Source: Cliona cf. orientalis
Lineage: Eukaryota; Porifera; Demospongiae; Clionaida; Clionaidae
Reading direction: 5' to 3'
NCBI GenBank assembly: GCA_963930775.1
Contig: OZ005689.1
Coordinates: forward strand, 29,899,079-29,963,078
Length of the DNA: 64,000 bases
Made by a program: the position numbers and the translations under genes
Shown here: positions 7,972 through 57,471 of the stretch, piece after piece
Position numbering within the stretch: the first letter of the stretch is position 1
Layout of the letters: the number at the start of each line of letters is the position of its first letter
Notes under the pieces: generated by a model
Told to the model about the DNA's origin: nothing
The model's input: only the letters and a program-made list of their open reading frames with translations
The model's database searches: none

Positions 7972-8092
7972 AGATAAACTATGGTTGCCCAGGATATACC
8001 GTTCATATACCACCCTGAGCTCGAGGGTGTAGCCCAAGAGCAAAGGTGGTATGGTATATGAATGGTGTATCCTGGGCAAACATGGTTTATCT
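7972..8092. mobile_element. 121-bp near-palindrome, foldback element
   Basis: The arms AGATAAAC-ATGGTTGCCCAGGAT and the inverted copy at about 8068-8092 pair over roughly 45 bp, and inner blocks TTCATATACCA/TGGTATATGAA also pair. The transcript would form one long hairpin. This fits a foldback MITE. Confidence 0.75.
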
Positions 8093-8782
8093 GTTTAATA
8101 TCTTGACCGTGAGTAGTCAGTGTAATCAGCAGACTGTTTACTTATTCATATTTGAAACTTGAACAGTTGGAGTACAGTAGGTAGCTAGATCCTATCATAA
8201 TGACAATCTGTACAATAGTTAGTCTATCAAGCTGGAACCCTCCTCAGCTAGTGATTGTATTATGTGCATGTGGGAGCTACTGGCTATAGCTAGTGGAAAG
8301 CTAGTAGCTACAACACAAACTTAGCATGCTAGTGCTGTGTTATTGGACTATTGTCAGGGGTAGGGAGTTATAATGCCTGTGGGCTGGGGTATATGAGAGT
8401 TATACGATGGCTGTTACCTAGGATACAAGGCTAAGTCATGATATTAAAATAGTTATATCACAGACGCAAGGGATGTATGGCATTTACAGTCGATTTCGAA
8501 TGCGTTTGAATGTGCGTGTGTGCGTGGACACGCTGCGTACCAATGTGTGAAGAAGCTGGCCATTCATGCAAGTCCCTAAATTCATAAATTTGTCAGAATG
8601 ATCTACTAGGAGGCATAAATTGCGTGAAATTGGTGGCCTCCCACATGCTCCCACGCACTAGTGCACACATGTTCAAATGCAGCCGAAATCGACTGTACTA
8701 CACTCACCCGAGGGTGCAAAGATCACACTCTGCAATATGTATTGGTATAATACTTGGCAATTTTCAAGGGGGAAATCCCTGG

Positions 8783-13922: not shown

Positions 13923-15713
13923 ATTTTGCTGCTTCTTTCTTCTCTTGGGCATCTTCTATCTTCTTTTTTGCTTTCTCATCCCGCAATCTTTTTCTTTCTT
14001 CTTTTTGAAGTGCTTTCTCTTGTTACTGTTTCTCCCATTCTTGAATTAATTGCAAGTTTTCTAAACTAGTCAAAATTCGTCCAGCTGATTTTCCATGCTT
14101 TGTTGGGATTTGGTTTGGCCGGGGAGGAAGTACCAGAACTTGCTGAAGGTTGATGAACAAGGAAGAGGAACTGATACAACAGGAGCTTTAGATGATATGA
14201 AGGATTGATCAAATAGGTTGGGCTCCGAGTATGAAAGCGGAGTCATGTAACAAAGTGAGCGATCATTGCTACCTGGAGTGAATTGACATGGTGTACGTGC
14301 TCAGCTCAAGGGAGGTGTTGCCATCTCTTGAGTACCAGATCCATGTAAATGAGTAGCTCATGGGCGGGCAGGGCTATACAGAGGTATATATGCAAGCCCC
14401 GTCTTCTCAGTAAGAGAGCTAGGCTTGAATGAAGAGAAATCATCTTCGTCATCAGGTAAGCTGATAGCCATTCTGTTCAGTGGGCAGACACCAGTAGCCT
14501 TGAAGCTATTGATTATGTTTGGCATAGTGAATGATTTATAACAGGCTTTAGCGAACACCTCACAGAAGTCGTACCAAGATACAGTTCGTCCAGGATTAGA
14601 GGCACAAAATGAATGGCAAATTTCCCTCCATGCCATGCACCTTCAAAGGTGCAAAACACCCTATGTCCAGGGGTTGGGTGAGGTGGGTTGTGTGAGGTGG
14701 CAGAGCACAGAAGATAACCATTTCTTTTGCTGCCATTTGAATGGTTTCAGGACAATAGTGTGCCGAGTGGCCATCAAGGAGGAGAACAGGACGCACGCTT
14801 GGAATCGAATTCAAAAAGTGCTGAAACCATTCACAAAATATTTTTCTGGTGATCCAGCCATTACGGGAGAGCCCGTAGATGGATCCCGGCACCTCTCCCT
14901 TTGTCATGGAATCATTCAGTGTCATCCTGTCGAAAATTACCATGGGAGGAATGGGATACCCCGCTGCACATGTGCAGGCTAGCACTGTAATCTGTGTCTT
15001 AGACCCACTGGTATTATAGCTAGGATTTTTACATCCTACCCTGTCAACGACTTTGTGAGATTTAGCGTCGAGGGGAAGCCCAGTTTCATCACAATTGAAG
15101 ATAACCGCAGCTTTGTTTAGTAGTCCATTGGATCGCAGACAATCTTCTAGCATGTCAAAGTAACGATCAATGACCTCTCGGTCCGTTGCCATCGCTCTGG
15201 CATACGAAAACGGAACCGCTACTCTTAAAGTTATATTAGGATGCCGTTGAACGTATCGCTTCCACCAGCCATGGTTACAGTGGTTGCTATTCCTTTGCTA
15301 TTGACCATTTGCTGTACAAGTGCAAGGACTTGTTTCCTTATATGAGCATACCCTATCTTGGCCGTCTCAAGCAGGAAATTGGTTAACTCCTCCTCCTCTA
15401 TGGAAAGGTATGGCTGAGATCCAGACCTGGCTCCATGCACCAACTTTCCACTCACTCTATCAAAGAGAGTGCTTCGAGGAACATTGTATAACTATGCCGC
15501 ACGACGAACGGGCTCCCCCTTGTCAAAAGCCTTCAATGCATTCTGCATGCTTACATTGTCCCATGCCCTGTATGCACCACGAGCCAAACGAAATTCGTCG
15601 GCACTGAAGGGTGTCTGCGATGACGTATCCCTTATGATGCGCTTTGACAGTGGAAGCAGCTTTGGCTGCTGGTGCATCTTTGAACATTCACAGTAGTACA
15701 GGTCTCTGCACAA
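13923..15713 (-). pseudogene. pogo/Tigger-like (DDE_1) transposase, decayed
   Basis: DNA transposase of the pogo/Tigger type, minus strand. In order: a psq-like helix-turn-helix start (15713-15492, WDNVSMQNALKAFDKGEPV); a stop TAG, then VPRSTLFDRVSGK and the second HTH (15455-15231); a one-base shift near 15270 that moves the frame into GWWKRYVQRHPNITLR; the catalytic part (15192-14596) with FNCDETG, LLLDGHSAHY and PPHTTHLTQPLD, which are DDE_1 catalytic-block motifs; a 4-nt CATG duplication near 14634 that shifts frame into AWREICHSFCASNPG and INSFKATGVCPLNRMA; then a Lys/Glu coiled coil (about 14130-13923) with an in-frame TAA. At least one stop in each end and two frameshifts mean the protein is not made as such. 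The family usually has 450-600 residues, so the length is near complete. Terminal repeats were not found. Confidence 0.85.
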
Positions 15714-29013: not shown

Positions 29014-29406
29014 ATATGTGGTAGGATATGAGAAAAGGGACCTTATCGCGCAAAATGTGATTTTTTACTGTTTTTCAAACGGTCACCATTCCAGGGCCTT
29101 AAGAGCCCTAGGCTTCCCACTTGGTTTGTAGGTAGTTTGGGCCTTCTACTTCACAGATCCAATGTTACAAGCCTGGGCAAGCCTCCTGTCCTGAGCGGTG
29201 AGCTGCCAAAGCAAGGCATAAAATGGCAATTTTCGAGCGCAATCAATGCGCGTGCTCGCCCCGCCCACACCGGACGTGGGCGGGGCTCGCAACTCGAAGC
29301 GAGTGTGGCCAGATGATGGAACAATATTCAATATTCAATATAATATTATATGCAAATTCGGAAAATGTACGATAAGGTCCCTTTTCTCATACCCTACCAC
29401 ATAATA
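29014..29406. mobile_element. 393-bp TIR element, GAGAAAAGGGACCTTATCG ends
   Basis: The ends ATATGTGGTAGG and TATGAGAAAAGGGACC are inverted at 29370-29406 over about 36 bp. The interior (AGGCATAAAATGGCAATTTT, CGCCCAC..GTGGGCGGGG) is shared with 44380-44640 and 43490-43640, so these are one family. No protein. Confidence 0.8.
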
Positions 29407-30164
29407 TACGATCTCCTGTCCCACCGTATACCATCTCATGCAAGACTAGTCGACTCTCCTTCCTCATGTTTGTCGCCGGCTTTAAGCCCTTCTCTCCTTC
29501 CCCCTCCCCCCAATTTCTACAAGTACATCATACATGCACACATGCATACATGCACACACACTCTTCAACATGCACGCACACACTCCCTATTTTAATACTA
29601 TACATGTACCTCAGTTTTCCAAATCTTAAACAATGAGCAGACATCCTCACAGTGAGAGCATCCATCACATCCAGTCAGTTGGTAGACTCACAGCGCAGTA
29701 CAGAGCCTTCATTTCTTAAAACAAAGGTATAAAAGCTATCACAACCTGCACAGCGCAGTACAGAGCCTTCAAAATTACATTTTCTACAATAAAGGTAAAC
29801 TGAGCTTTTCACAACAGTAACTCATACCAAACAGCGCACACAGCTACTAGTAAATTCACAGCTACGAATGGCTATCTCATGTGTCAGACTCCTTCGTACT
29901 TTGCCAGAAGTACTTCATGTTGAATCACACCCAGGGGTGCATGTTTATTACATGCAGCCTTAGCTATAAGAACAATCATAGACAACTTACGAAGTGTAGA
30001 GTCCATCGCTTCTCTCGATATTATTCACTCCATCTGAGGACGGCACGTGATGTTGTGTGGGGCGTGGCCATGTATGCAAGGTGTGTCCATAGCGCACATG
30101 GACTTTGCGAACTTGGCGCGAAAACCAAACACATTGCTGGGCTCAAGAGTTGATATCTGTTGGG
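29407..30164. other. intergenic with short direct duplication
   Basis: CACAGCGCAGTACAGAGCCT occurs at about 29690 and again 60 bp later. No gene seen upstream of the first MULE-gene exon. Confidence 0.45.
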
Positions 30165-31134
30165 ATGAATTATTATGGAGGGGTTGTGAAAAACGTAGAT
30201 GATGTATTGGAAGAGCATAGAAGAGACACACACTGTACTTTTGGAACCAGAAGCTCAAAGAAACTTGGATCTCTCACTACAAACTCATGTCAGCAAACTG
30301 AAAGTGAGACTCCCTCCTCGGCGTTATCGTCGATTCAGCAGGATGAAAAGGAAAACGCTAACCCTAAGAAAGTACGTGAATATAAATATTCTGTGAATCT
30401 GGTGCTATTTTAATCTCTGTTTTAATACAGGCAACAAAAACCAAAATTTTCTGGCAGCACACAATAGAGAATGAACAAATTGAGTTCAACTACACTCCTT
30501 TCACAGTCACTGAGACAGGACGACTTGATTGTCAGTTTGGCAAACAATATTTTAAGGAAAAACCCGCCAAATCCAACCGCACTCAACTCCAAGGGACACG
30601 GAAAATTGGCTGTCCAGCCCACATCACCGTCAAGACTCTCACTCTCTTTCCAGAGTATGACATCGAAGATCCATCCTCACTTGATCCAAGGAAACTGAAG
30701 GAAACTAAAACAAAAAAAAATTGGAGGAATTACGTGCTGCTTCTGAAATGAAAACCGAGAAAAGGTATCATATTGTTCTCCCAACCAAAGAAGCACACCA
30801 CAGTGTACATCCCATAAAAGGTGCTATTGGGTATGCTCAAAGGATGCATCCAAAATTGGCAGAAAAAATTCAAGATTTGGTATCTGAAGGAACTACCAAT
30901 GTACCAGAAGTAACGAGGGCTTTAAAGTATTATGTTAACCACACCTTATGCCCTGACTCTAAACCAGACATCTCTGATCGGGCTTACTACCCCACTGCTG
31001 ATGACATAAGAAACCATATTTATCGTGCACAGAAATCATGCCAGCTCTCACATCTTGACCAGAAGAATCTACGCTTGAAAGTTGAACAATGGAAAAAAGA
31101 TGACCCAGAAATTTTATTTTTGTTTAGACCATTC

Positions 31135-33863
31135 CAGGGGCGGAACAAGTATATTTCAAGTGGTGGGGCTTAGATAAGTTATGAAGGTCGCACACGCAAG
31201 CGCGCGGCGAAAATTTTTGAGGTGCCACGCCCACTTTTGGAGGTCAAAGGACACGATAGCTGCAATACACAATATTAAACACATAATTTCAAATACACAC
31301 TCCAAATGTTTGTTTTCGTTCTGTGTTTCGCTGAATGAACTCTTTCATAGCTCCTTTGAGGTCAATAGGTCTCTCTTTATGTATGTATATCATCATGAGA
31401 TAGTTTAATCTCTCTTGGTTCACTGTAGTTCTGAGAAAGGTCTTAACAAGGCGGAGAGAAGAAAATGATCTCTCACTTGTGGCTGATGTAGCCGGGATTA
31501 CAAGAAGCAACTGAAGCAGTTTCATTAATTGTGGTAGGATTGCCTGATATTCATTAACTTTGGTTTTCAGGTTAGGGTAAGTGAATTCCATGGAGGCCAT
31601 CACATTCTTGAGCAGACTAAGTTCTGTACGCAATTCCAAGAGCTCTAAATCATCAACAAAATGATCGACTACTTCCTTCAAAAGTGTATCGGATATTTCT
31701 TTACCCTCAGCAGCCGACTGTAGCAATGATTCCATTTTTGTATACAATGAAAATGATGGAGATTCAAACCGTCTCTCAATCTCTCCTACAATGGTATCAA
31801 TAATCTCAAAGTAGTACCTTTTGTACATATCTGTCATGATATGTACTACCACTGGCTTCATCAAATCTTCGAGTGACTTTTCTCTTACAAGATAATGTTG
31901 GTTCACCAATGCCCAACTCAGTTGCCTTGGCGGTAGTCTGCACCCAAAACTCTTCAAAGTTTGAATCATTTCTTAATTCCTTCAAAGCACATAATTATTG
32001 TGATAGACGAAAATTTCTTAGCTGCGATTGCTGATAAATCTTTCTTTTGTAACGCTGTACTAAGCTTGTCAGTGATAGAAAACATTTTCTCACTTATTGT
32101 AACTCCAAATAGAAACTGAAAAGTCTCCATTGTTGTCAACACTCCTCTGGCTTGACAACATGCTTCAAAATTACCTTTGTACTCTTCCATAATTTCTTCC
32201 AGTACTGACATTATGACATCATAATTTGTAATCACTGACCGAAGAGATTCGGCTCTCACAGTCCATCGTGTAGGACAAAGTGGTTTTACACCAGGATTAC
32301 CTGGTGCTAGCTCATGTTTCAAGCATAGCCTTTTTCTTAGCACTGTATTTGAATATTTTTGAGAGTTCCAAAACTACATCAAAAGAAGCAGACATCACCT
32401 GTATTGATCTGCAAGTGTCCTGTACTGCTAAGTTCAGGCTGTGACCCATACAATGAATATACATAGCTCTGGGCTCTTTCTTTAGAATTTGAGTACAAAC
32501 ACCTGTATGTTTGCCAGACATATTAGATGCCCCATCATAGCACTGGCCACGACAACGATTCAATGGGAGATTAAACCGAGTTAGACTGTCGATAATTACT
32601 TTCGTAATAGTATCTGCATCAGTCCTATCAGTTGCATATAAGCCTACACAGTCTTCATAGACTTCCAAGGAGGTAGGATCTACATACCTGATGCATATTG
32701 TAACCTACACATGCATAACCACAATACATTTTATCATTGTTAACAGTATAACTATTCACATACCTGCTCAGTGCATCAATAGCTTCATCAGCCATCACAG
32801 AATACCACAAACTTGAGGATACATCCTTAAGTATTGACCGAATAATTTGATGTGACATTATTTTCAATATTTCATTTTGAATTTCATGAGATAAATAAGC
32901 TCTTTTACGTTCCATCCAAACTTGCAAATCCTTACAGTCATTTGCCCGTAGTTTAAGTAGCTGAGTAAAATTCCCCCTTTCATCTTCATGCCCACGTAGA
33001 GGTAAACCTTGACGAGCAAGGTATTCAATAGAAGAGAAGATGATTTCAAGACAATGTAAATTTTTCTTTTGTTCCAAGCTAACCTGCTTATTGAGCTGAA
33101 CTTGAATACTGGTACCTTTAAGATGGTGGTTCCACTTCAATACTGATTCCTTGTGACATTTGCTTAGTCGATGTTGCTCAAAAGCAGTAGTAGACCTTTT
33201 CCAATTGTCAAATCCTGCTGATATAAATGCATCGTCTGCATTTTTTGACGTTAGCTGCTGCATTTGAGAGATATTCTTACAAATATAGCAGAATGCTTTT
33301 TGTGATCGGTTGTCCCAATGAAGCCAAGGTGACCATTTATCATTATCAAACCATTTGGAATTAAAGCAACGCTGCTGTTTACCAAATTTTTTTGAAGGGA
33401 ACTTTTCATGACATGGCTGGTTTGGTTCATTAATAATTTCATTATCAGTTTCAGTACCTGTAATAGATATAGTTTCATCCTCTAATTCAGAGGGTGAACT
33501 TTCCTGATCTTGCACTGTAGCTGTGCCATCGTTAGTCATAGATCTAGACAAGTCATCAGGCTCCAAATTATCATCATCACTTTCCTCTTCCTCTGTTAGC
33601 AATTCAACATCATTTTGTTCTTCTGGTACTGACCTGCTACTATCAAACAATTCTTTTAAAGATCTCTGCCTTGACATGTAAGTCATGTAGCTATGTCACA
33701 TACAGGCCACCACGTGGTCACGGATCTGCTGACAGTGCAAAAGTAGAAGCGCTTAACGACCACTTACCATATTCATTACAAACGAGTGGTGGGGCTATGC
33801 CCCCATGCCTGGAGAAGTGGTGGGGCTATAGCCCCACCAGCCCCACCGTCTGTGCCGCCCCTG
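31135..33863 (-). mobile_element. 2.7-kb hAT element inserted in the MULE gene
   Basis: Ends CAGGGGCGG (31135 on) and CCGCCCCTG (ending 33863), with CATTC duplicated at 31130-31134 and 33864-33868. Deleting the element and one CATTC joins FLFRPF to TESEPGRDTRQ in frame. The inner sub-terminal sequence has repeated GTGGGGCT/AGCCCCAC blocks, possible transposase binding sites. A 5-bp duplication is shorter than the usual 8 bp of hAT elements, though 5-bp groups are reported. Confidence 0.9.
31289..33686 (-). pseudogene. hAT transposase (ZMYM/TTF-type), frameshifted
   Basis: Start ATG at 33686. N-terminal acidic tail, then a TTF-type zinc finger (WLHWDNRSQKAFCYICKN, HRLSKCHKES), the catalytic start YSVMADEAIDA, then VYEDCVGLYATDRTDA, RCRGQCYDGASNMSG, MYIHCMGHSLNLAVQ, GVKPLCPTRWTVRAESLRSV, and the C-terminal hAT dimerisation block (PATSATSERSFSSLRLVK, RLNYLMMIYIHKE). 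Between DALS and RYVDPTSLEVYED there is a possible intron bounded by two CAGGTATGTRRAT copies (about 32665-32765). The frame shifts at about 32330, near 31975 and near 31820, so the protein is broken. Full family length is about 750-850 residues, and nearly all of it is represented. Confidence 0.85.
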
Positions 33864-36329
33864 CATTCACTGAATCAGAGCCTGGCCGTGATACAAGACA
33901 AAACTCACCTAACACTTTAGAGGCACCGCCTTCTTCACTTTTATTCATCCATCAAAATGCGTGGCAACAGCAGCTCCTAATCAAGTACGGAAATACAATT
34001 TCACTATTGGATGCTACATACAAGACAACTAAATATGAACTCCCACTGTTTTTTCTATCGGTGAAGACAAATGTAGGATACTCTGTGGTTGCAGAATTTG
34101 TTATTCAGTCTGAGACTGCCCCTCAAATTAGTGAAGCACTAAATATCTTATCACAGTGGAATCCCACATGGAAACCCAAGTTTTTTATGACCGACTACTG
34201 CGACGCAGAGATGTCAGCTATTGCGGAGGTTTTCCCAGAATGTAAAACTTATCTTTGTGACTTTCACAGGGAGCAGTGCTGGGAGAGGTGGGTGAAAGAC
34301 AGAAAGCACGGATTTTTACAGGTAGAGGCAGAAGGGTTGCTCACTTTATTGAGAAAATGTGCACATGCCCAACCATCCAGTGATGGGATTGCTGTTGATC
34401 ATGGCTACCAACAGCAAGTTCGACTCCTAAAACAATCCTATATTTGGGGAAAAACTCAACAGGTTAGGGAATGGTTACAAACCAAGTGGCTGCTAATCCC
34501 TCAGGTAAGTTGTACCTCTACACAACCCCTCTAACTAGCATACGGTACTATGTGTGTGTGTCTGGATTAACAGTATTAACACAGTACAAGGCTGTACTGT
34601 AAACCCACAAACACTACCATCCTTGTAGTGGCTTGTTGTAATGTTTACTGTATAATTATGTAAATTGTACAAGTGTTGCATGCATGTGCACACTGCTATG
34701 GGATACAATAAACCACAAGTATGCATTTATTACAGAAATGGGCTAGAGCATACAGAGATGGATCGTACCATGCTGCAGTGAATACAAATAATGGAGCAGA
34801 GTCCCTAAACAAGGTGCTAAATAAAGTACAGTTTCCTTCCAAGAAAGAAATCCTTGACACTATCAAAAACAATTTCACTGCTTATCGACGATTTTCTACC
34901 AATAAGCCAACAGAAGTACTTATTCCAGAATTATTAACAATCAAGCCAATACATATCGTACAAAGGCTTTTGTGCCTGATTACTTGTGTGGACGACCTCG
35001 CAGTACAATACTACACTGCTTGGAGCGAAAAACGAAGGCACTCAAGTATTCTCTGAGTGATACAAATGCAATAGACTTGGAAAACGGGAAGTTTACAGTA
35101 AAAGGCACAAAGAATAAGACACATACCATTGATTTTGGATCAACAAATGCAGAACACATGCCTTCCTGCACTTGTCAAGATTGGACTCAATGGCACATGC
35201 CTTGTAAACATTTTTTTTGCGATTTTCAACCTCTATCCTGAATGGGGTTGGCATCAACTACCAAACGAGTACTTGAACAGTGCTTACCTCAGTACTGACA
35301 CTGATGCTCTTCAAAGCAATTTCTCCCTTGCACAACCAGAGGATCCTTTCAGCACTCAAGAACTACCTGAGGAAGACAATAGCACTACTAGCCCAGTGGT
35401 TGATAAAATACCAACACATAAGGTATTATAATAAGCATGACAGTAATACCATAGATTATTGACTACATTGCACTCCAGACACTGATAAGCTCTCTCAAAC
35501 AAGGAGAAAGGGCTAGAACAAATCTAAGAGTGTTGGAAACCCTCACATACAGCTGTATAAACCCCGGTGATTTGCACGAGCTTTCAGTAAAGCTAGACAA
35601 TCTTGCTAAAGAATTTCGATCAAAGTTACCACGGTCAGAGGGACTGGTATTACAGCCAAATGCAAGCAGAGCAGCCAGACGAAGAGCTCAACAGGTTAGT
35701 AAAAAGTACAAAGCACTACCCTTGAAAACAAGGCGTGGAAGAGTATGTACAGACTGGAAAGTCAGAAATCGTGTGGGTGCAAAAGTGGACCGGCTAAAGA
35801 AGGTAACAATTATTGGATCGAATAAATAAAATTCTTGACCCCCCCCCCCCCCACTATCATGTAGGCAGCAGGAGTGTTTCTGAAGCAGAGCTTTTCATGC
35901 AGTAATACCGTAACTTCCGCACATTTAAACCAAGCGAAGAAGCCATCCATGGGAAACGAGTTACTAGTGGATACTTCAACGAGTGGCTCACACACAATTA
36001 AATCTCAAAAAGCTGGTAAGTCGGGCACAAAATTAGCATCAGCTTCTATATTACACATTTACAGGAAAGAAGAGAAAGCGATGTGGTTTGTGTTCAGCTT
36101 GCTCTCTTGAAAACTGTGGGCATTGCTCATCATGCAAAGATATGCCAAAATTTGGGGGGCCGACATGCAAAAAGCAGTGCTGTGAACTAAGGAGATGTCT
36201 TGTCGCTGATGTTAACCTCTCAAAGGAGTGCAAATAAAATTTGCTTGTGCATGTTAAGCATGCTTATATAGGATCTAGGAGCAATTTGTCTATAATATAA
36301 ATCTCTCTCTCTCTTTGTCTCTCTTAAGG

Positions 36330-36950
36330 TATCTTCTCAATCCAAACAAGCAAATGAAGGTATAGGCACCAAGAAATTTCTTGAAAATCAAGCTAGATAG
36401 ATAGTGCCAATGCTACCAGATGGAAACTGTCTGTTCAGATCTGTAGCTCATCAACTTGTTGGGGATGCTGAACAGCATGATCAACTACGCCAAGCTACAG
36501 TTGCTTTCGCTGCTCAAAATAAAGAGGCACTGAAGGGATATTTACCCCAGGAAGAGGGAACTGAAAGTTCTTCATTACAGGATCATTTACAACGAATGTG
36601 CAAAGTAGGATGCTGGGGGACCCACTGTGAATTGAGAGCGATGGCCTCAATGCTACAAGTACCCATTTATGTTCTAACAGACTCACTTGTTCCTGGTGAG
36701 TGTAGATGGACCCGGTTTGACCCATGGCTTTCTCCTGGAGACGACACTACAGCTCTGAGTCCGAGCGATGAAAGTTGCACAACATCTTGGATAGCAGGAG
36801 TCCTTCAGGGTGGTCTACTACCACAGTGGATGTAAATATGCCACTCCAACGCGGTACACTATGACAGCATAGAGTTTAAGGGTCCAGGTCCTCACTCACC
36901 ACCATGTCTTTCCGAGAGTTCTGTTCCTGCTATTGTTGTCCTCGAATAGT
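36330..36950 (+). pseudogene. OTU-family cysteine protease domain, interrupted by stops
   Basis: After a CTCTTAAG acceptor-like site the frame reads VSSQSKQANEGIGTKKFLEN, a TAG (about 36397), then VPMLPDGNCLFRSVAHQLVG with the OTU catalytic Asp/Cys (DGNC), LQRMCKVGCWGTHCELRAMA, and after a TAA at 36833 the block NAVHYDSIEFKGPG, where HYD supplies the catalytic His. All three catalytic residues exist but the TAA removes the His. OTU proteases remove ubiquitin; several transposon groups carry one. It lies 90 bp after the MULE gene stop and may be a second ORF of the same element. Confidence 0.75.
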
Positions 36951-37480
36951 CTTAGCACTTATTATCGTGCAGTCTTTTTCCTTTTTTGTTTACATATCTT
37001 TGTGTATTGTGTATATGTGCCAATAATATTGTTGAACAGGATGTCACGTGGTGTAATAATTACTTCGGTTCACCAGATGGAGTGAATAAAGCGCCTCCCT
37101 ATATCTTCTCCTTAAGACCAGGACTGCTGTACTGGCGCTCTCTGTGGCCATCTTTCCCAGCAAATTCAGTATGGCGCTAACCACGTGGTGTAATACAGAG
37201 CGTATACGGAAACATTGAACGTTGAGCTATGTACGTACAAAACACTCCGTTTCTTGAAAAATTGTGAACTGAGGCACGGGTGACCCGTGTACAAATTTTT
37301 GGCCATAACTCGGCTTAGGAAGCTTTTTAGAGCCTGGCTCTTTGACCATTGAACTCTACAGTAAATTCTGCATCGATCTGTACCCAAAACGCGATTTTTA
37401 TGAAATCGCGAGTGGTCAGGTTTTCCATAGCAGGTCACATATACTTGTCAAGGATCCTAGTATTTCTATGCTAGTTATAT
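36951..37480. other. intergenic, no gene recognised
   Basis: Two near-identical CACGTGGTGTAATA motifs (37045 and 37183) suggest a small repeat or target-site footprint of about 140 bp. No gene. Confidence 0.35.
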
Positions 37481-37884: not shown

Positions 37885-39120
37885 TAATTAATACAAGTAT
37901 AAAAACAATTGAATAAAATCGAAGGATGAAGTAGGGATGGCAGGATCAAAAAGTACACAAATAAGATTTGTAAGGGATAATCGCATCTACTATACATCCC
38001 TACACTTGCTTTTCTTTATTATTACGCACTTATTAATGTCAACATACTTGTCGAGTGGAGTATGTTGAAGACATTCAGGTTATTCCTAGTTATCACAATG
38101 GTGGGATGGTCAATTTGATTCAATCATGCATTATTACTGGTCATTTTTGCGTACCTCAACTTGAAAGCAAGCGTAGGGATGTATAGTAGATGCGATTATC
38201 CCATGCAAATCTTGTTTGTGTACTTTTTGATCCCGCCATCCCTACTTCATCCTTCAATTTTATTCAATTGTTTTTATACTTGTTCCTGTTCTTTTTTTAT
38301 TGCACATAGTGCATTTTATCCATCTTACATGGCTTGCTCACAACTACTTAAGTGGACGATGGGAGGTCTTGATTTCAACTCGAGGTAGTCAGAGTGCACT
38401 CAGTTTTTACTACAGCTGACTTGGCAAATCATTTGCTCCACCCATTCAATTAACGCAGTAAGACCTGCCCACTAATCATCTGCATACAGTACTCTGCATA
38501 GCACTAGAGCTCTGTACTTTATCTCTTTCACTAACAAAAGGTGCTGTAACTACCCTAGCGGGCATGATCATGTAAAATTTCATAGCCTCAGAGGTAGGTG
38601 TCTATTTTATTTAGACACCTATAAATCAATCTGATTGGTCAGAATGTTACAACCATGGTACAAGATCTGTAAGTTACCTCTCCTCGAGCCTTGCGCCTTC
38701 AAGAGTCGCTGCCGTTTATGATAGAGTGTGTGATCTTTCCAGCGGAGCATTAGCGCGGCACGCGCTAGCGAGTAGCTCGCCTATGCCTAGCGCCTTACCG
38801 CTCCTCGAGCCTTGCGCCTTCTTATCCATGATCGATCCAGCGCACTGCTGCATGCGTTAGTAGCGAGTAGCTAGCTCGCCATGAGGAGTGCTCGAGCTCG
38901 CCTGGGGGAAGGGGCGCTATCACATGACTTCACCATGGCAACACATTATGAGCATGCGCATTATATCACAAAATGGCGTATCAGACACACCCAATTATCA
39001 ATGCGCCGTACACACCCACTATTACATAACTGTCGAGATAATGCCGAACTTGCGTGCCACTGCACTGCGCGCTACAAAATGGAGGGGATGTATACTCAAA
39101 CTAAGATGAGCGATTAAGGC
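37885..39120. repeat. repeat family R3: inverted pair and long copy
   Basis: 37885-38015 and 38163-38290 are inverted copies of the same R3 block (AACAATTGAATAAAAT..CATCCCTAC). From 38163 to about 39110 the sequence matches 57472-58240 in order and orientation, including CACATGACTTCACCATGGCA, TCACAAAATGGCGTATCAGA and GCGTGCCACTGCACTGCG blocks. No coding frame is shared between the copies. Confidence 0.8.
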
Positions 39121-41057: not shown

Positions 41058-41494
41058 TATGGGCGCTACTTGGAATTCCCACCAGTGGACTTTCGAGATA
41101 CAGCCAGATTCATGGAACTACTGTAAGTTTTAGCTCACCTTTTAAGCTTCTTGAGCATTGAAGAACAATCGGCTGTCGTTTTGAATAAAATTTGACCCTT
41201 GCTTGATCTTTACGTTCGTTTCGAACTGCCCCGCCCAGGGCCATTTAATTGATTTCCGGTTCACACGTATTATGTGGAAACGCTATATGCGTGCATAGCA
41301 ACGTCTTTAGATTGTAATTTCTCGATTATTGGGGGTGTGGCGCGATCGCAAACAAAGTGCTCTATTTCCACAATGAAGTGCGCAATCAGCCTATGACTTA
41401 ACGCAGGTTTGCTCTGTGGTAGTGCTTATCAATCATACATCAAATTCAGTTTTCAGAAAAATCCCATACGGAGGGTTTTCCCAAATCCGGTCAC
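41058..41494 (-). mobile_element. MITE family M1, copy E (truncated, inverted)
   Basis: Only the part from ATGGGCGCTACTTGGAATTC to the CCGGTCAC end remains. More diverged than copy D, 70 bp away, so an older insertion. Confidence 0.85.
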
Positions 41495-41533
41495 ATTTGG
41501 TGCTCTATGTACAAGAAATGATCAGAAATAGTT

Positions 41534-42222
41534 TTGGATCTTCCAAGTGTTCTATCATACATCCAATCTAAATCTACTGAGGTGATTGATCATGACTTAT
41601 TGAGTATGATTAATTTTGCAACCGTTATAATAGCTGCTATACTGTCTCCTAATTATTTATCACAGAATTGGAGCATTGAACGCATCTGGCCAGAAGTAAA
41701 CCAGCGTGTAAATTACCCCATTAAGAGGATTATTAAGATGGAAGAAAATGGCATAATAGATATGGATGTGCCTACCACTAAATTCTGTTAACGTTGCAAC
41801 TGTTGGTATTCAGGCATTCGTTCAAGCATGGAATTGTCACTCATTGCCAGGTAATTACAATTGATAAAGTTGGGAGTGATTAAATTCCCGTGGCTGATCA
41901 ATTGGGACTCAATGTATACCCAAAATTAGTAATTATTATTATGTCAATGTACATGCAGACGGTGGAAATCCTAATGATAGGGCACTACAAAGAATGGGAG
42001 TCACACCAATCCCTGTAGGAGTACTGCCACATGGTGATGTTGCCAGGCAACAATATATAGATTAAGAAGGATCCATAACACAGTTTGGAACCTTTGGTAT
42101 TGATCCCCTATGGAGTAGGGCTGATCTTGTCATCAGATGGGATGCACTGTTTAAAATGCAGAATCCATCATTTGATGTATTTTCCAATGTTGTTAGTGGC
42201 AATGGAAATTTATTACAGGGTC
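41534..42222 (+). pseudogene. integrase-core (rve-like) domain protein remnant, two exons
   Basis: 41534-41852 reads NWSIERIWPEVNQRVNYPIK, then after a one-base shift NVATVGIQAFVQAWNCHSLPG before a GTAATT donor. About 41959-42222 reads GGNPNDRALQRMGVTPIPVG, a TAA, FGTFGIDPLWSRADLVIR and FDVFSNVVSGNGNLLQ. This order is that of the integrase-core proteins abundant in invertebrate genomes (RIW..VN.RVNYPIK, AWN.H..PG, YPDF..VF..V). The N-terminal two thirds, including the first catalytic Asp, are absent. Confidence 0.65.
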
Positions 42223-42526
42223 AGTGGTGGATCTAGGATTTCTTGAAGAGGGGTTCTGTTATACTCTTGCGTACAAAATTATAGAAACCACGCCCATTTT
42301 TGATCGTTTGAGAGTAACTACCACTAGTTACTAACCCAACCAGTTCAAGTGATCGATTTTTGAATGAATTTTCTGCTGAAGCATGCTAAGGTGAGCCACA
42401 ACAGCAGGTTTCTTAGTTCTGTAGCCTGAAAGGGGGGTGGGTTCCAGTTCAGTACTTCTTAGTACTAGGTGCAGCCCAAAGAGGGGTTCGATCGAAACCT
42501 CCGAAACCCCCCTAAATCTGCCACTG
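42223..42526. mobile_element. hAT-type MITE (CAGTGGTGGATCTAGG ends)
   Basis: CAGTGGTGGATCTAGGATTT at the left and the inverse CCTAAATCTGCCACTG at the right. CAGTGG..CCACTG ends fit hAT MITEs. No clear 8-bp duplication. It abuts the integrase remnant. Confidence 0.7.
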
Positions 42527-42868
42527 AGGATTGCATACTAAAATTTATTTGTTACTAACAAATCTTGAGCAACTTCTGTGAACATGACATTAAATCAAAG
42601 TCGAATGTAAAGTTTCAATTAATTTGAATAGCCCACGTGAGACAAAAATCTGTGCATGTGCCTACATTGGTGGGTGTGTGTGATCTGTTACTCCTTTTCA
42701 ATCTACATGTCTTTTTCATGGTGAAGAACGATTCGTTGTCTCTTCGACTGAGACGAGGATTGCCACCCAAGGGAATATAAGATTCAACATCTGCCCCCAG
42801 TCCCTCTATCTAGTTGGAAGCAACGGAACGGTGGCGACGCCTGAAGAAGGTGACTTCGAACCTACAGT

Positions 42869-43279
42869 ATGAGCCAGGATACTGAGTGGACAGTCAGCAG
42901 AGATTCTTCGAAGCCAACTGGTAGTCATTCAGTGACCAATTTCCCCTCTGGTTCTGCCAACTCCCCCTATGCATATCAGGGCCAGCAGCCAGAAGCATCT
43001 CAGCCTAGTACATCGAAGTATGCAAAAGCGGGATCAAAAGTGGCCAAATGGAAGCCCTCTCTATCACTCTTTCTGATACGAAACAAACCACCTGGTGTGG
43101 CAAAGCAGGAATGTCAGAGAGGAAAGCCTGGCAAAGGCCACGGTAAGGCGTGGACGAAAACGATTGAAATATATACGTATGATGACAGCATGTATGCAAT
43201 AAGGAAAACACTCAATCTGCCAATAACACTGTCTGAAAAGACTGCATCTGTCAATTGTGTAGCTAAATTGTGTCCCTAG
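42869..43279 (+). CDS. unrecognised 136-residue open frame
   Basis: Starts ATGAGCCAGGATACTGAG and ends TAG. The N-terminal half is Ser/Gln/Pro-rich and disordered in character; the second half is basic (KQECQRGKPGKGHGKAWTKT) followed by IEIYTYDDSMYAIRKTLNLP. Composition is protein-like and unlike simple sequence. It may be the first exon or N-terminus of another element. I do not recognise a domain. Confidence 0.35.
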   Translation: MSQDTEWTVSRDSSKPTGSHSVTNFPSGSANSPYAYQGQQPEASQPSTSKYAKAGSKVAKWKPSLSLFLIRNKPPGVAKQECQRGKPGKGHGKAWTKTIEIYTYDDSMYAIRKTLNLPITLSEKTASVNCVAKLCP

Positions 43280-43396
43280 AGTCGTTTGAAGGCAAGAAGT
43301 TGTTCTTCGGGATTTGGAAAATCTAAAAATTCCGGACAGTGCTGAAACACGAGGTATGTGATTATCATAATTATTAATAAATTGTGATAGGATCTG

Positions 43397-43903
43397 AGAG
43401 AAGGGGGTAATTTCACGCAAAACACTAAATTTTGACATTTTTCAAGTTGCCACCACTCAAAGGTACCAAGAGCCATACATAGGCTTCATTCTTGGTTTGT
43501 AAGCACCACAGCCCTTCTACTAAAGAAATCTAACGTTAGAAAGCCTAGCTATGTTCTTACCTGAAATGGTGGAGCTCCAAAGTGAGGCATAAAACGGCAG
43601 ATTTTCGACCGCGTGCGATACCAGCGATCGCCACGCCCATGCTCGGAAGAAGCCGCCCCACGAGCCACACCCCCCGAGAGAACCGCGGCCAAGAGACAAC
43701 AGGCCACCGCTCAGAGTCAGACGACGGGCTCCTACCACGTCACCGGCTCCACGACAACCGACTCCACACGAAGGACCGCCACCAGCAGTCAAGAGACCTA
43801 CTCCATCCCCAAGAAGAAGCAGGTGGTTAGCATCGACCACGCCCCAAGGAGCGTCGGACACGCCCACCGTAGAACTGACTATTTAAGAACTGTACACTTG
43901 TAG
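43397..43903. other. TIR-family fragment and GC-rich segment of a retroelement
   Basis: 43397-43640 resembles the 29014/44314 TIR family (AAGGGGGTAATTTCACGCAA end; AGGCATAAAACGGCAGATTT). It runs into a GC-rich stretch (43610-43900) with two overlapping open frames of about 80-95 codons rich in Arg/Thr/Ser; neither matches a family I know. The hammerhead-like motif follows directly. Confidence 0.45.
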
Positions 43904-43915
43904 TTCTGCATTTTT

Positions 43916-43958
43916 TGCCCTGAGGAAGACTGCAGTATAGCAGTCGAAACTGTAGGCA
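43916..43958 (+). ncRNA. hammerhead-ribozyme-like motif, well-formed stem II
   Basis: Stem I TGCC (43916-43919) pairs with GGCA (43955-43958). Core CTGAGGA (43920-43926) matches CUGANGA. Stem II GACTGC (43928-43933) and GCAGTC (43940-43945) are perfectly complementary around ATAGTATA-type loop bases. GAAA is at 43946-43949, stem III is the near-palindrome ACTGT (43949-43953), and A43954 fits the cleavage position. As in the motif at 20745 there is one extra A between core and stem II. No Penelope protein is adjacent. Confidence 0.6.
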
Positions 43959-44029
43959 TTATGATGAATTATTTTTCATTGCGAGAAATAATGCGGGATT
44001 GGTGTAACAAGATCTAGCTCGTAGCTATC

Positions 44030-44290
44030 AATAATTCATCAATATCATCCAAATAGTGATGATCAAAATCATCCAACTATGGATGAGTTTTAACATGAAC
44101 TAATATCATCCAAATAGTGACGATCATAATTATCCAACTGTGAATGAATTTAAACGTGCATCAATATCATCCAAATAGTGATGACCAGAATCATCATCCA
44201 ACTGCGGATGAATTTAATATCATCCATGTAAGAATTTTAATCTGTGGCCCATTTTATCCATATTTGGATGTTTTTTAATGGGTCATTTTT
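44030..44290. repeat. tandem repeat, about 61-bp unit (ATATCATCCAAATAGTGATG)
   Basis: Four to five imperfect units combining AATATCATCCAAATAGTGA, GATCA(A/T)AAT.ATCCAACT and GGATGA.TTTAA. The last unit is shortened. Confidence 0.85.
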
Positions 44291-44313
44291 ATCCATGTGT
44301 GAGTGAATTTTTA

Positions 44314-44704
44314 GAGAAGGGGTAACTTTGCGCACTTTCTGAATTTTTGTATTAAAACGCTTATATCTCTGGAACCATAGCAGCTATGAACTTCAAACCC
44401 TGGCATGAATATTCTTTAATCATACTACTACACTTGCTGCAATTTACGAGCCCCGCCCACTTCCTGTATGGGTGGGGCGAGTGTGTGCATCGATTGCATT
44501 CGAAAAATGCCGTTTTATGCCTCACTTCGGCGGGTTATAGCTCAGGACAGGAGGCTTGCTCAGACGTCTAGGGTTGGATCTGAAATAGAAGGCCCAAAGC
44601 ACGAAAAAACTAAGTCTGATGCCTAGGGTTTTGACTAGCTTGAAATGATGGTAGGTTGAAAAGTGACAAAAAGTCATGTTTTGCGCAAAGTTACCCCTTT
44701 TCTC
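44314..44704. mobile_element. 391-bp TIR element, GAGAAGGGGTAACTTTGCGCA ends
   Basis: GAGAAGGGGTAACTTTGCGC is inverted at the right end (GCGCAAAGTTACCCCTTTTC). Interior blocks (AGCCCCGCCCAC..GGGTGGGGCG, TTTTATGCCTCAC, GACAGGAGGCTTGC) match the 29014-29406 element in inverse orientation. Family member with no protein. Confidence 0.85.
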
Positions 44705-45222
44705 AAATCCGCTTAAATATTTGGATTCGGAACATACCTCAGTGAGGACAAAGAAACGAGAAATGAGCCAGGTAAGCTGAATAATTCAACCAATAATTTC
44801 ATAGTAAGATAAGGTAGTATCCTTGACTTCATAGGCTCTCTTAGTGTCCTTTTTTATTTTCAGTGGTTACGGGGGAGTACATCATCCAGGTAAGTTTTGT
44901 GCATTTTTAGTAATACAGTGTTTCCACTACTATACTTGAAATGGGGCACCCCGCCTTGTTTGTGAGTGGCTGATTTGCAAAATGCTGACAGCTGCAACAG
45001 TGGTTTGCAGTACAGTAGTACTGAGTATTTCACTTCCCTTTGAACAGTGTACTCTAGCTCTAGTGAGCTGAGACAAGTGGTCAGTCAGTAGAGTTTACAC
45101 AGTAACAAGATAATTTAATATAGACACACCCATACATCACCACAGGCTATGCGCATGATCATTTGGCGTGCATAGCTCATGATTCAATGCAGTGAGCTGA
45201 TTGTGACTCTCGTATTAACGGC

Positions 45223-45404
45223 ATGGACCTAAAGCATTGGTACAACATCGGATATCTAAATGCTTTGCCAATGTGGGCACACAGCGATGCTAACTACAGG
45301 CCACCTTCTCAGCCTACCTTGGCATTCACTAACGCAGGACCCAGGCCGCGCTCTACCGCCATCATACATACCTCATGCTCAGTCAACCAGCGTATTTCCC
45401 CAGG
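45223..45404 (+). CDS. candidate first exon, unknown protein
   Basis: ATG at 45223, MDLKHWYNIGYLNALPMW.. SQPTLAFTNAGPRP.. NQRISP, then CCCCAG/GTAAGAGC, a strong donor. I found no convincing next exon. A Pro-rich open stretch at about 45840-46150, also ending at a GTGAGC donor, could belong to it, but phases were not resolved. Confidence 0.3.
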
Positions 45405-46339
45405 TAAGAGCTACATATATTATGGCTATTCGGCTATAAAAATTAAATGTGGTTTTAATTTAGCTACACATAAACTGGATATTTCTAATAAAAGCACACC
45501 ACATTTCCATGTATGCAGCCTACTCATCCTAACCCAATCTTAGACGTACCGGTTGATCATCCAATGTAGAGTAATCCTGATCCTATATAGTTGATCTAAC
45601 AAAAGCAACAAGTATTTCTGTTACGAGTTCTAATGCACCCACTAAATGACGTTTTATCCATTAAACGAAGTTAACATACGAGGGTGAGCCAGGCAGCGCC
45701 GCTGCATGACGGTATAATATACTACATGCATGCTAATGCATGCCATAAGCATCATAGGCGGGCCACGCCTGCATGATTATGTACATGTGCTCGGCTATAT
45801 GTGCCAAGAAACCAGCTGTTTGCCACACAAACATTGCAAGTGGGAAAGAGAAGCCGTGCATCAAGCATCCAGGCCCAAGTTGACTGGACCCCTACAGCGA
45901 ACTCCACTCGTGACAAATGGTGAAATCGGGCAAGAATGCTGACAGTAATCCTCTTTGTGATGGTGGGCCTCCTCGCAGTCCCACTCACCATGATCCCCCT
46001 CGGGATAAGCCCGAGGTTCAGGAAAAGAACCACAGCTGTCAGGCGAGCAGATGGAAGCCCTGGCCTCGCAGGTCAACCAGAACGTACTGAGGCACTTGAC
46101 GGGGTGCGGGACACCATCTTTGAGAGGACCATCGTCTTCTACCAACAGAGGTGAGCACTAGTAGCGAGGTACTATTGTCATATAGGTGACGACCACTTTT
46201 CACCAGCGATAAACTAACTCGTGTATATATGTAGTGCCAAGCCATCCCCAAGTGGCCGAAATGGTTTCATTAATACAAGCAGTGATGGTAGGTTGCTGTG
46301 ACGAACTGGTCCAAGGAACATACCGACATAGGGTCATTG

Positions 46340-46615
46340 CATGGTGGGTAACTAGTACATTGGCACAGGATCGATGGACACCGGCTAATAATACATTGGC
46401 ACAGGGCTGATGAGCTAATAAAATACATCGGCAGAGGGTCGATGGGCTAATAAATACCGGCACAGAGCTGACGGGTTAATTAACAGGCTATTAAAATGAT
46501 TACACATCGGCACAGGGCCAACGTGCTAATAAGGATACATATGCTAATACCTACATCAGCACCAGGCCAATGGGCTATTAAATGCATTGGCGCAGGGCTG
46601 ACGGGCTAATAATTC
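46340..46615. repeat. minisatellite, about 30-40 bp units (CATTGGCACAGGGCTGATG)
   Basis: Seven or eight imperfect units built from ACATCGGCACAGGGC, TGACGGGCTAATAA. The array stops about 10 bp before MITE copy F. Confidence 0.85.
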
Positions 46616-46622
46616 TTTATAT

Positions 46623-47289
46623 GTGACCGGATTTGGGAAAACCCTCCGTATGGGATTTTTTCAGAAAATTGAGTTTGGTGCATGGTTGATAAGCTCTACC
46701 ATAGAGCTAACCCGCGTTCAAGTCTTAGGCCGATCGTGCGCTTCGTTGTGGAGATACAGCGCTTTGTTTGTGATCGCGCCACACCCCCAATAATCGAGAA
46801 ATTACGGTCTAAAGGCGTGGCTATGCACGCGCATGGCGTTTCCGCATACTACGCGTGATCCGGAAATCAATTAAATGGACCTGGGCGGAGCCGTTCGAAA
46901 TGAACGTAAAGCTCAAGCAAGAGTTGAATTTCGTTGTTGACAAGGACAGGCAATTGTTCTTAGATGCCCAAGAAGCTAAAAAGGTAAGCGAACGTACAGT
47001 AGATCGATGAATCTAGCTGTATCTAGGTAGAGAATTCTAATTACCGCCCATAGCAACGGGCTCCGTGTACGGTGGCTGTGCCGACTAGGTGGGTCAAAAT
47101 GAAGGCTTATTTCGCCTTCGTATAGCACGACTAGCCTCCGTAGAAGACGGCAACAGTAAGAAGAAGGGTTGTTTGACATGTATATGACAAAATCTGGACT
47201 TTGACAAATTTAGACCTGAGCTACTAAAAACGCGCATTGCGCGAATCGCGCGCGGATCCCATACGGAGGGTTTTCCCAAATCCGGTCAC
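46623..47289 (+). mobile_element. MITE family M1, copy F (667 bp)
   Basis: Complete copy, same orientation as copy A, flanked by ATAT on both sides. The internal frame (QELNFVVDKDRQLFLDAQEA) is open. Confidence 0.95.
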
Positions 47290-47324: not shown

Positions 47325-49459
47325 GGGCGGCGGAGCCTATACGGCAAGTCCGGCGCTTGCCGGACCAAACAAAATGAGTTTTTAATACCTTGATCAATGG
47401 TAAGTGTAGCTACTTCCGAGCGGCTTTTTCAGACACTCAGACAGCATTGAAACGGCCCACTGTCATTTGAGGGTGTGTCCAAAAGTACCACGCCCCACCC
47501 TAGACACTCGCACCCTATAACATTATTATGTGCATGCGCGCCCGAGGGCCGAGGGCGGAGTCTAGGGACAAACGCGCGCAAAATATGAAAAACATATACG
47601 AGTACAAGTCTCATGATAGGCACGTGATCGAAGGAGCACTGACCTCGAAAAGCCATGGCCATGTCTACTTTACCCGAGAGGTTCCATCCTCATAAGGTCT
47701 TTGTGTTTCCAAAACGCAAGTTTGGATCTAAGGGAGAGGAAAGGACATTTAGGGCGGACTGATATCCGTGGCTGCACTATGATGTTGTACAAGATGCCAG
47801 CAGGAAACGAGACCTAGCCTTCATAACTAAAGGATTTACATACTGGAAAGAGGCGACTTCGGCTTTTAAGAAGCACCAGTCGACCGACTGTCATATAGAT
47901 ATCCAAAATGAGTGTTTACAACTAATGGCATTACATATTCTTCGTCAAGTGAGTGCTGGTATTCAGGCCAGCCAATATTACAGCATAATGGCTGATGAAT
48001 GCACCGACATTGCTAACAAAGAACAGTTCACAATATGCCTCAGGTGGGTTGATGACAATCTGGATGATCATGAGGACTTCATTGGTCTATATCAGGTTGA
48101 CAGCATTGGTGCTAAGTCTTGTACAAGCTATTAAGGACACCCTGATCCGATTGAACTTACCAATATCTGATTGCCGAGGCCAGTGCTATGATGGCGCTTC
48201 AAACATGAGTGGCTGTAAGAATGGAGTTGCCACACAAATCATAGCTGATGAAAGCGGGCAATCTTTATCCATTGTCATGCACATGCACTTAATTTAGCTG
48301 TTGGAGATTGTATTAAAAAGTCCAAGATCTCTTGTGAAGCTCTTGAGACTGCCTTTGAGATCACCAAGCTCATCAAATTCTCTCCGAAGAGAAATGCTAC
48401 CTTTGACAAGATTAAGGCAGAGATGGCTAATGACAACTCGAGTGGTGGTATCCGCAAATTTTGCCCAACAAGGTGGACAGTTCGTGGAGGAGCAATCAAA
48501 AGCATACTCGAGAATTATGACGTCTTAAATCAGCTGTGGGAAGAGTGTCTAGAAGGAAGATTGGAGCCAGATGTTAAAGGGAGGATAATTGGTGTCCAGA
48601 CACGTATGTCACATTACGATTTACTGTTTGGGCTGAAGCTTTGTGAGAGGATCTTGTGCATTACCGACAACTTGAGCAAGACTTTACAGAAACAGTCACT
48701 ATCTGCTGCAGAAGCACAGAAGCTTGCCAAGTTAACCAATGAAACATTGAAAAGCTTCAGAATGGATGAGGCATTTGAACTGCTGATAGAATGCCTCAGT
48801 GACAAGGTTGGAGCAGATGGACCCACTCTTCCTAGAAAAAGGAAGGCACCAAAACGCTACGAAATTGGTGAAGGAGAAGGTTATCATAGCCCTACAGTCT
48901 CGGATCACTATCGCCAATTGTATTTTGAAGCTATTGATCTCGTCACATCTGGAGTCAACAACCACTTTTGATCAGCCTGGTTATCTACCAGAATTTAGAG
49001 GGACTACTTCTAAAAGCTGCAAACAAGGAAGACTACTCTTCTGAGTTCAGGGAAGTGACTACATTCTATGGAAGTGATATTGATAACAATGAACTTACAT
49101 CACAGTTGTTGATATTTGCGACAAAATTTGCTACAGAATGTCCGGCTGGCAAGATCACTTTAGTAGACATTATCTCCTTCTTGCGGAGTCTCTCTGAGGG
49201 ACAGCGTACTTTCTTCAGTCAAGTGTGTACCATTGCTCGTCTCCTAATTCTACCTTCTACAAATGCCGTCAGCGAAAGGTCCATGAGACGATTAAAGAGC
49301 TATTTAAGAAGCACTATGGGCCAAGCAAGGCTAAACCATCTCATGCTGCTCAGTATTTACAAAGACCTGCTTGATGGCCTAGATCTGAAAGCGATAGCCA
49401 GTGAATTTGTTCGAGAAAGTGAACATCGTCAGCGTGTATTTGGAGACTTTACTACTTAA
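47325..49459 (+). pseudogene. second hAT (ZMYM-like) element, left end and transposase
   Basis: A CAGGGGCGGCGGAGCC end at 47325 fits a hAT terminus; no right end was found. The transposase starts at 47661 (MSTLPERFHPHK, FPKRKFGSKGEE) with a TGA at 47760 where the family has Trp. Parts of the zinc finger and linker are deleted. Recognisable: TYWKEATSAFKKHQSTDCH, QYYSIMADECTDIANKEQ, CLRWVDDNLDDHEDFIGLYQ, DCRGQCYDGASNMSG, FCPTRWTVRGGAIKSILENY, and C-terminal SERSMRRLKSYLRSTMGQAR. Frameshifts occur near 48110, 48270 and 48970. It differs clearly from the 31-34 kb element (QYYSIMADECTDIANKEQ against LWYSVMADEAIDA), so it is a separate lineage. Confidence 0.85.
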
Positions 49460-57092: not shown

Positions 57093-57471
57093 TCTCTAGC
57101 TAGTGTAATGATTTATTATAGTATTATGATTAATAATAGTACTTATTATTATTATGATTCAATGTAAGTATTGATGTGTTGTGCATGCACTAACTTGACT
57201 TACTTCCTGGCCGAAAGTTCGCCGAATGTGCAACAAGATCAAGTTCTTTGACGACGGGAGTGGTTACCGGCATGACTCGTGATGAGGTAGCCGCGCGTCG
57301 AAGGTTCGTTGACCCTTCCTACTCTTGGCAATCTTTGCTGAACCGAAGCGCACTGCAGCTGATGCGAATTCGCGTCAACCGCGTTGAAGGCGCCGTGCAT
57401 GCACGATGCGAATTCGCATCAACCGCGTATAATCGGTTAACTATACTACCGTATTCTTTTCCCCCTCAAAA

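Follow-up and report, generated by a model that had tools for sequence, protein, structure and literature searches.

A Mutator-like element of a sponge that joins CARF/ALS2CR8, SWIM, CXXC and, in most copies, OTU domains, and its possible link to unmethylated CpG-rich DNA

According to the parts of PMC6446971 consulted, Mutator-like elements (MULEs) make target-site duplications (TSDs) of 8-11 bp, and the features of their groups include SWIM, FLYWCH, FAR1, SET and PMD; group 14 in its Table 1 lists Hydra MuDR-6_HM, with an 'Ovarian Tumour Gene' motif and one ORF. Proteases have also been reported in transposons: Ginger1 transposases have OTU or Ulp1 at the C terminus, Helitrons carry OTU, Ulp1 occurs in Mutator elements, and a role for the ubiquitin pathway in transposition has been proposed (PMC2836005, sections consulted). 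Three MULE-type FHY3 genes are given for the sponge Amphimedon (PMC10027918, sections consulted). The words CXXC, CARF and ALS2CR8 are absent from the texts of PMC6446971 and PMC10027918, as are OTU, CXXC and SWIM, by word search, from that of PMC13359780 on arthropod MULEs; PMC6875170 uses OTU solely as 'operational taxonomic unit'. Here we describe a degraded MULE copy at positions 30022-37099 of the window (the whole stretch of DNA analysed, 64,000 nucleotides; G000:C1:29899079-29963078) and its relatives in the 217-Mb assembly that holds it.

The MULE, CARF/ALS2CR8, SWIM, CXXC and OTU pieces of this region are, on comparison of sequences, parts of one element, because inverted ends, duplications of 9-10 bp and the same order recur in diverged copies, and because CXXC and OTU share a frame in one relative, L025. 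Our preferred reading, to which we assign a probability of roughly 0.6, is that the window copy, now dead, derives from an autonomous cut-and-paste MULE in which the CXXC finger would hold the transposase on unmethylated CpG-rich DNA and the OTU protease would be dispensable. The parts of the window copy are as follows.

30022..37099, plus strand: the whole degraded MULE copy, nested hAT included, outer 5' end lost (ends compared with those of locus L009)
30022..30036, plus strand: remnant of the inner 5' end, TATTCACTCCATCTG; the outer GGGAGGCGC is lost (comparison with L009)
30138..30371, plus strand: exon 1 region, N-terminal block (tblastn to exon 1 of L025); donor AAGAAA/GTACGTG
30431..31134, plus strand: CARF/ALS2CR8 DNA-binding block, 5' part of exon 2 (PF15299 match)
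31135..33863, minus strand: nested hAT transposon, outside the MULE gene (DUF4371 and Dimer_Tnp_hAT; L009 lacks it)
33864..34504, plus strand: MULE catalytic block, 3' part of exon 2 (PF10551); donor CCTCAG/GTAAGT
34736..35422, plus strand: SWIM finger exon, which also carries the third catalytic residue (NNGAESLN); frameshifted in this copy
35479..35802, plus strand: 'mid' exon, conserved and basic, matching no Pfam family
35865..36015, plus strand: linker exon ahead of CXXC (splice motifs, counterpart in L025)
36065..36234, plus strand: CXXC finger exon with KFGG (PF02008 match)
36329..36832, plus strand: OTU exon (PF02338 match); the open part with DGNC is 36401-36832
37082..37099, plus strand (G000:C1:29936160-29936177): 3' terminal inverted repeat, reading GGGAGGCGCTTTATTCAC on the minus strand

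Pfam matches in the window comprise ALS2CR8 (Pfam's CARF family) in two overlapping frames (1.3e-14 at 30386-30748 and 2.6e-16 at 30709-31170), MULE (3.3e-13 at 33548-34531, with aspartates of the catalytic block in DATYKTT and TDY), zf-CXXC with KFGG (9.3e-13 at 36067-36234) and OTU (1.5e-16 at 36401-36832). The SWIM finger lies under the cut-off in this copy (0.11) because its exon is frameshifted here, and over it in L025 (1.3e-5). An earlier sequence-only reading had placed the element at 30165..36950, which was right as to place and slightly short as to extent; the brokenness of the copy was absent from it.

The window copy is dead, with frame shifts and stops in several parts. Exon 1 lacks its start relative to L009, the ALS2CR8 part contains one frame change near 30712-30718, and the SWIM exon has at least two. 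The splice donor that follows CXXC in L009 is gone here, so that the CXXC frame runs into a stop. An in-frame stop at 36398-36400 interrupts the OTU exon, and a second at 36833-36835 precedes the histidine codons (HYD) at 36857-36865. The MULE is further split by the hAT element, for which L009 represents the empty site, with DNA identity between the window copy and L009 of 94% on one side of the insertion and 96% on the other. The nested element itself carries DUF4371, a hAT dimerisation/C-terminal domain and a sub-threshold zf-C17orf113 match, and CATTC stands at both borders, so that only 5 bp are duplicated relative to the empty L009 site; hAT target duplications usually have a length of 8 bp.

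Whether the parts belong together was addressed by genome scans accepting matches to an E value of 0.01, some of them below curated cut-offs; 150 of 181 OTU and 150 of 153 MULE candidates were scored, and the counts are therefore lower bounds. At least 40 CXXC, 127 OTU, 38 ALS2CR8 and 90 MULE matches were obtained. Neighbours were sought on the same strand, with ALS2CR8 or MULE up to 8 kb upstream and OTU up to 1.5 kb downstream of CXXC. Among the matches listed, 26 of 40 CXXC matches have such a neighbour on one or both sides, ten have ALS2CR8, MULE and OTU all in place, and 14 have none; 18 of the 40 have a downstream OTU, compared with 0.018 expected under even placement, and wrong-order neighbours (OTU upstream, or ALS2CR8 or MULE downstream) accompany none of the 40. 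ALS2CR8 lies upstream of 19 of the 90 listed MULE matches, and 15 of these 19 are followed by CXXC, as compared with two of the 71 MULE matches that lack an upstream ALS2CR8.

At finer resolution, the L025 exons were compared by tblastn with 26 larger loci (L009-L034) and the window region. The order ALS2CR8-MULE, SWIM, mid, CXXC and OTU is complete in 12 of these 27 loci (L009, L012, L013, L017, L018, L019, L020, L021, L025, L028, L029 and the window), and no deviating order occurs in any of the 27; the earlier reading had proposed to test whether intact copies keep the arrangement. Three loci match in the 5' half only (L010, L011 and L022), OTU is absent from L015, L016, L024, L027 and L034, CXXC from L014, and the SWIM exon from L023, L026, L030, L031, L032 and L033.

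The gene of L025, read exon by exon, has nine exons joined at GT/AG sites and encodes 1270 amino acids without a stop; one continuous frame runs through its linker, CXXC, short and OTU exons, and in L009 the phases of the CXXC donor and the OTU acceptor match. PF15299 is matched over nearly its whole family length in L025 (1.9e-30) and in 11 of 11 members of alignment A2 (best 4.8e-35), while matches up to an E value of 1 in A2 include no FAR1, FLYWCH or WRKY family. PF10551 exceeds its cut-off in the window and in L025, the D, D and E residues align, and L025 also has the SWIM finger that is common, not universal, in MULEs. The zf-CXXC signature, its cysteine pattern together with KFGG, is present in the family (KFGG in 18 of 23 aligned rows, KFSG in three, KYGG in two), with single cysteines missing in some rows, for example L027. 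Predicted structures show OTU and transposase folds, and catalytic and zinc-type residues are conserved in the sequences, including the catalytic Cys and His of OTU, the latter lying beyond a stop in the window copy. In whole-chain fold searches the matches were taken up by the catalytic core, so that the lack of a FAR1 or WRKY match among them carries no weight for the ALS2CR8 part, which by sequence matched nothing in the PDB except one miniprotein (E 0.65). This part might share a WRKY-GCM1-like zinc finger fold with other MULE DNA binders.

Element ends could be defined for 13 copies that have inverted ends and a 9- or 10-bp duplication (L009, L013, L014, L015, L016, L017, L018, L021, L024, L025, L026, L027 and L030). 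L009, for instance, has GGGAGGCGCTTTATTCAC repeats at its two limits and a duplication that reads TTGTCAAAAA, and the ends of L018 share only seven matching bases, GGGAGGC. A check for duplications of 8-11 bp around the window copy had been suggested; none turned up there, the copy having lost its outer 5' end, and the 13 relatives have them. A pattern built from the end repeats matched the genome 23 times, and not at all when reversed. Six diverged copies (L009, L013, L017, L018, L021 and L025) enclose all domains between inverted ends and a TSD, and L026 and L030 are internally deleted with CXXC and OTU retained, so that both of these domains are present in eight of the 13. Near-identical copies at separate genome places may be an indirect sign of transposition. 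Together with the L025 frame, these copies bear out the earlier claim of one element with CARF-like, MULE, SWIM and KFGG-bearing CXXC parts and an OTU protease behind them.

The CpG content of the elements and their surroundings bears on what the finger may do; CpG methylation was inferred here from base composition only. Across the 13 elements, interiors have a CpG observed/expected ratio (o/e) of 0.44 with TpG at 1.30 and CpA at 1.28, an excess that is the expected trace of methylated-cytosine decay, and the corresponding values for the terminal 150 bp at the two ends are 1.17, 1.09 and 1.11. In a small sample of three close pairs, five CpGs changed and 49 were shared at the ends, and 32 changed and 192 were shared inside. 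Rank tests set the flanks of the 13 insertions that have a TSD (12 insertions beyond 400 bp; one flank was removed as element-like) against those of 59 other dispersed repeats from the same sequence, and 46-58 of these repeats could be used in a given bin. Insertion flanks reach an o/e of 0.94 versus 0.65 for 54 control copies within 0-400 bp (p = 0.0027), and are near the controls at 400-800 bp (0.66 versus 0.63, 58 copies, p = 0.28) and 800-1500 bp (0.60 versus 0.66, 46 copies, p = 0.64); the innermost 50 bp show 1.24 versus 0.72 (54 copies). With five further copies that lack a recognised TSD, the 18 copies give 0.96 versus 0.65 within 0-400 bp, and p values of 0.0057, 0.0004, 0.081 and 0.76 for 0-50, 0-400, 400-800 and 800-1500 bp; L023 likewise has an element-like flank, which is excluded from these values. 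In an earlier test of 11 insertions against random places, which still included the element-like L024 flank, p was 0.0037 for o/e and 0.013 for CpG counts. The L024 flank (1582-1889 in reverse-complement coordinates) matches the ends of L024's own subfamily, and therefore another copy or fragment stops about 11 bp before the start of L024. Only one of the 13 target duplications, that of L026, contains a CpG. Most such elements thus sit in CpG-rich patches of about 0.8 kb, beside CpGs rather than on them.

In the mechanism that we propose, all exons would be spliced into one transcript, and the ALS2CR8 and SWIM parts of the product would recognise the inverted ends. The cysteine pattern and KFGG of CXXC fingers have roles in reading unmethylated CpG, and the finger of this element, of the MLL/CFP1 unmethylated-CpG type, would hold the transposase on unmethylated CpG-rich DNA. 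Bound to the element's own CpG-rich ends, it would favour mobilisation of unmethylated copies; bound to CpG-island-like target patches, it would lead new copies to land beside, not on, CpGs in unmethylated DNA. The OTU protease would strip ubiquitin off either the transposase itself or the local chromatin, and would be dispensable because one clade lives without it. The MULE lineage is real and coherent, its putative epigenetic-reader module is unusual, and the reader mechanism is plausible, not proven. More tentatively, at somewhat below even odds, the element may be a transposon with its own epigenetic reader, in which CXXC steers the MULE to unmethylated CpG patches, mobilisation is coupled to methylation of the ends, and an optional deubiquitinase deals with chromatin ubiquitin.

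Several observations weigh against this picture. Four of the 13 TSD-bearing copies, L015, L016, L024 and L027, form one clade that has CXXC and no OTU before the 3' repeat; a fifth, L014, has inverted ends, a TSD and OTU with no CXXC detected. CXXC is therefore near-constant in the family and OTU optional. In the tree, from which two of 24 rows (L023 and L030) were left out for short coverage, clades are firm, with support of 100 for the OTU-less clade, and the backbone is weak (31-54); the OTU-less clade may therefore either have lost OTU or have branched before it was gained, and no OTU match was found in the distant outgroup L034. The mid exon of L009 contains a 2-base frame shift, and dS between subfamilies is saturated or close to it. 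As to the CpG signal, p for the 0-50 bp flanks alone is just 0.029, and two of the 13 insertions have CpG-poor flanks over 0-400 bp (L014, 0.30; L027, 0.25). The analysis was post hoc, on 13 or 18 insertions, with other repeats rather than CXXC-less MULEs as the control. Of six MULE loci without ALS2CR8 considered as a control, only L037 and L040, of one CXXC-less MULE, gave two defined copies, with no clear TSD; their flanks, with too few bases for a decision, give o/e values of 0.82, 1.39, 0.65 and 0.57 at 0-50, 50-100, 100-200 and 200-400 bp, high at 50-100 bp and, close to the ends, without a clear difference from the CXXC-bearing family. MULEs in general favour the 5' ends of genes, and all of them may share a tendency towards open or promoter DNA.

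This last point underlies the alternative that survives best, which we nevertheless consider somewhat unlikely: CXXC might read only the element's own CpG-rich ends, so that methylation would gate excision or the element's promoter, and the CpG-rich flanks would show no more than a liking of MULEs in general for open, promoter-like DNA. The ends are indeed CpG-rich relative to the interiors (1.16 in the first and 1.23 in the last 150 bp versus 0.44 inside, in a set of ten elements), and those of all 13 elements are without TpG/CpA excess. The CpG peak, however, also extends outside the element and is highest in the first 50 bp of flank (1.24), as tethering at the target would produce, and this does not separate the two readings. 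The CpG-rich flanks are consistent with CXXC tethering of the transposase and also with a general taste for open DNA. The earlier suggestion that the element could target open, unmethylated chromatin has indirect support from the flanks up to 400 bp, which are CpG-rich compared with other repeats; the element's own CpG-rich ends offer an equally good CXXC site.

Alternatively, CXXC and OTU could act on chromatin, transposase stability or silencing rather than on site choice, with the CpG-rich flanks arising from survival or ascertainment bias. Unmethylated patches would preserve ends and TSDs longer, and only copies with recognisable ends were used, eroded ones being excluded; the trend nonetheless holds when the five copies lacking a recognised TSD are added (p = 0.0004), though L023 is low (0.57), and we regard this explanation as unlikely. 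It is less probable still, and in our view rather doubtful, that CXXC and OTU form a separate second gene of the element, unfused to the transposase. Maize mudrB is such a second gene of its element, and the CXXC frame of the window ends in a stop, but the shared frame of the linker, CXXC, short and OTU exons in L025 and the matching CXXC and OTU phases in L009 argue for fusion.

A domesticated host gene is highly improbable for the family: copy number is low and some close pairs differ mostly by silent changes, but 13 TSD-bearing copies, the internal deletions of L023, L026 and L030, and the broken window copy rule it out, and a single locus could still be domesticated. Accidental adjacency of a MULE, a CXXC gene and an OTU gene, with which the window copy taken alone is compatible, is scarcely credible and is ruled out by the same order in diverged copies within inverted ends and TSDs and by the excess of downstream OTU (18 of 40 versus 0.018 expected); intact copies without CXXC or OTU had been named beforehand as a sign of such chance, and the outcome is mixed, in that the four copies without OTU tell against OTU as an obligatory part, the one without detected CXXC hardly does so for CXXC, and neither domain is a chance neighbour.

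The window is transposon-rich beyond this element. A 5.2-kb stretch at 41459-46658 has inverted ends of 44 nt (AAATCCCATACGGAGGG...) together with a duplication of 8 bp, TTTCAGAA, and similar sequence recurs, by eye, at 37493 and beside L018. Arms of 120 nt, 95% complementary and 151 nt apart, at 37893-38283 likely represent a small inverted-repeat element, and a second arm pair, with 34-nt arms, lies at 29015-29403. Other transposase remains, at 14599-15297, 54306-57095 and 48938-49456, include DDE_1, DDE_Tnp_1_7 and a further hAT dimerisation domain. Elsewhere in the genome, locus L020 contains at 7031-8488 (reverse-complement coordinates) a 1.46-kb element with GGGTGTATCTATTCAC ends and a 10-bp duplication, GTACAAAGTT, which adjoins the 3' part of another copy and is perhaps a non-autonomous relative. 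Transposons may inflate the number of CXXC genes counted in genomes of this kind, with 26 of the 40 CXXC matches listed for this genome falling inside or beside transposon pieces. In collections without animal genomes, 25 genome-contig and 19 viral-contig stretches matched the A2 pattern and none encodes a relative.

If our preferred reading of a CXXC-guided MULE is true, this family would represent a cut-and-paste transposon that carries a DNA-methylation reader of its own, and how MULEs find open, promoter-like DNA would become directly testable. Some retrotransposon integrases carry chromodomains, to which such a reader would be a counterpart. The full arrangement was not known to the earlier reading as a described element: word searches of the literature, with Repbase entries and closed papers outside their scope, found no published MULE with CXXC or ALS2CR8, but OTU in a MULE and in other transposons is already in print. 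The protease fusion is therefore a known kind of addition, and the CXXC reader and the ALS2CR8 binder are, within the reach of these searches, new on a MULE.

The element resembles the MULE/MuDR superfamily in its DDE core with a MULE match, its SWIM finger, its inverted ends and its 9-10-bp TSDs, and differs in adding CARF/ALS2CR8 and CXXC, neither of which is in the group table of PMC6446971. With Hydra MuDR-6_HM, compared by its table entry only, it shares a MULE with an OTU motif in one ORF; that entry, however, lists no zinc finger, CXXC or CARF and gives its terminal inverted repeat as 'None'. Ginger1 likewise has a transposase with a C-terminal OTU or Ulp1 protease domain, but its core is of the Gypsy-integrase type instead of MULE, and no CXXC appears in the parts of PMC2836005 consulted. 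The finger has the cysteine spacing, KFGG and KKQ of the MLL1/CFP1/DNMT1 type, with HRX (MLL1) as the nearest solved chain, whereas it sits in a transposase and its CpG binding is predicted. Human CARF/ALS2CR8 shares the PF15299 match, which in the element is the N-terminal part of the transposase. CARF is a calcium-responsive transcription factor, and the comparison suggests that the CARF/ALS2CR8 family may be transposase-related; this link of a DNA-binding family to MULE transposases bears on the origin of such transcription factors.

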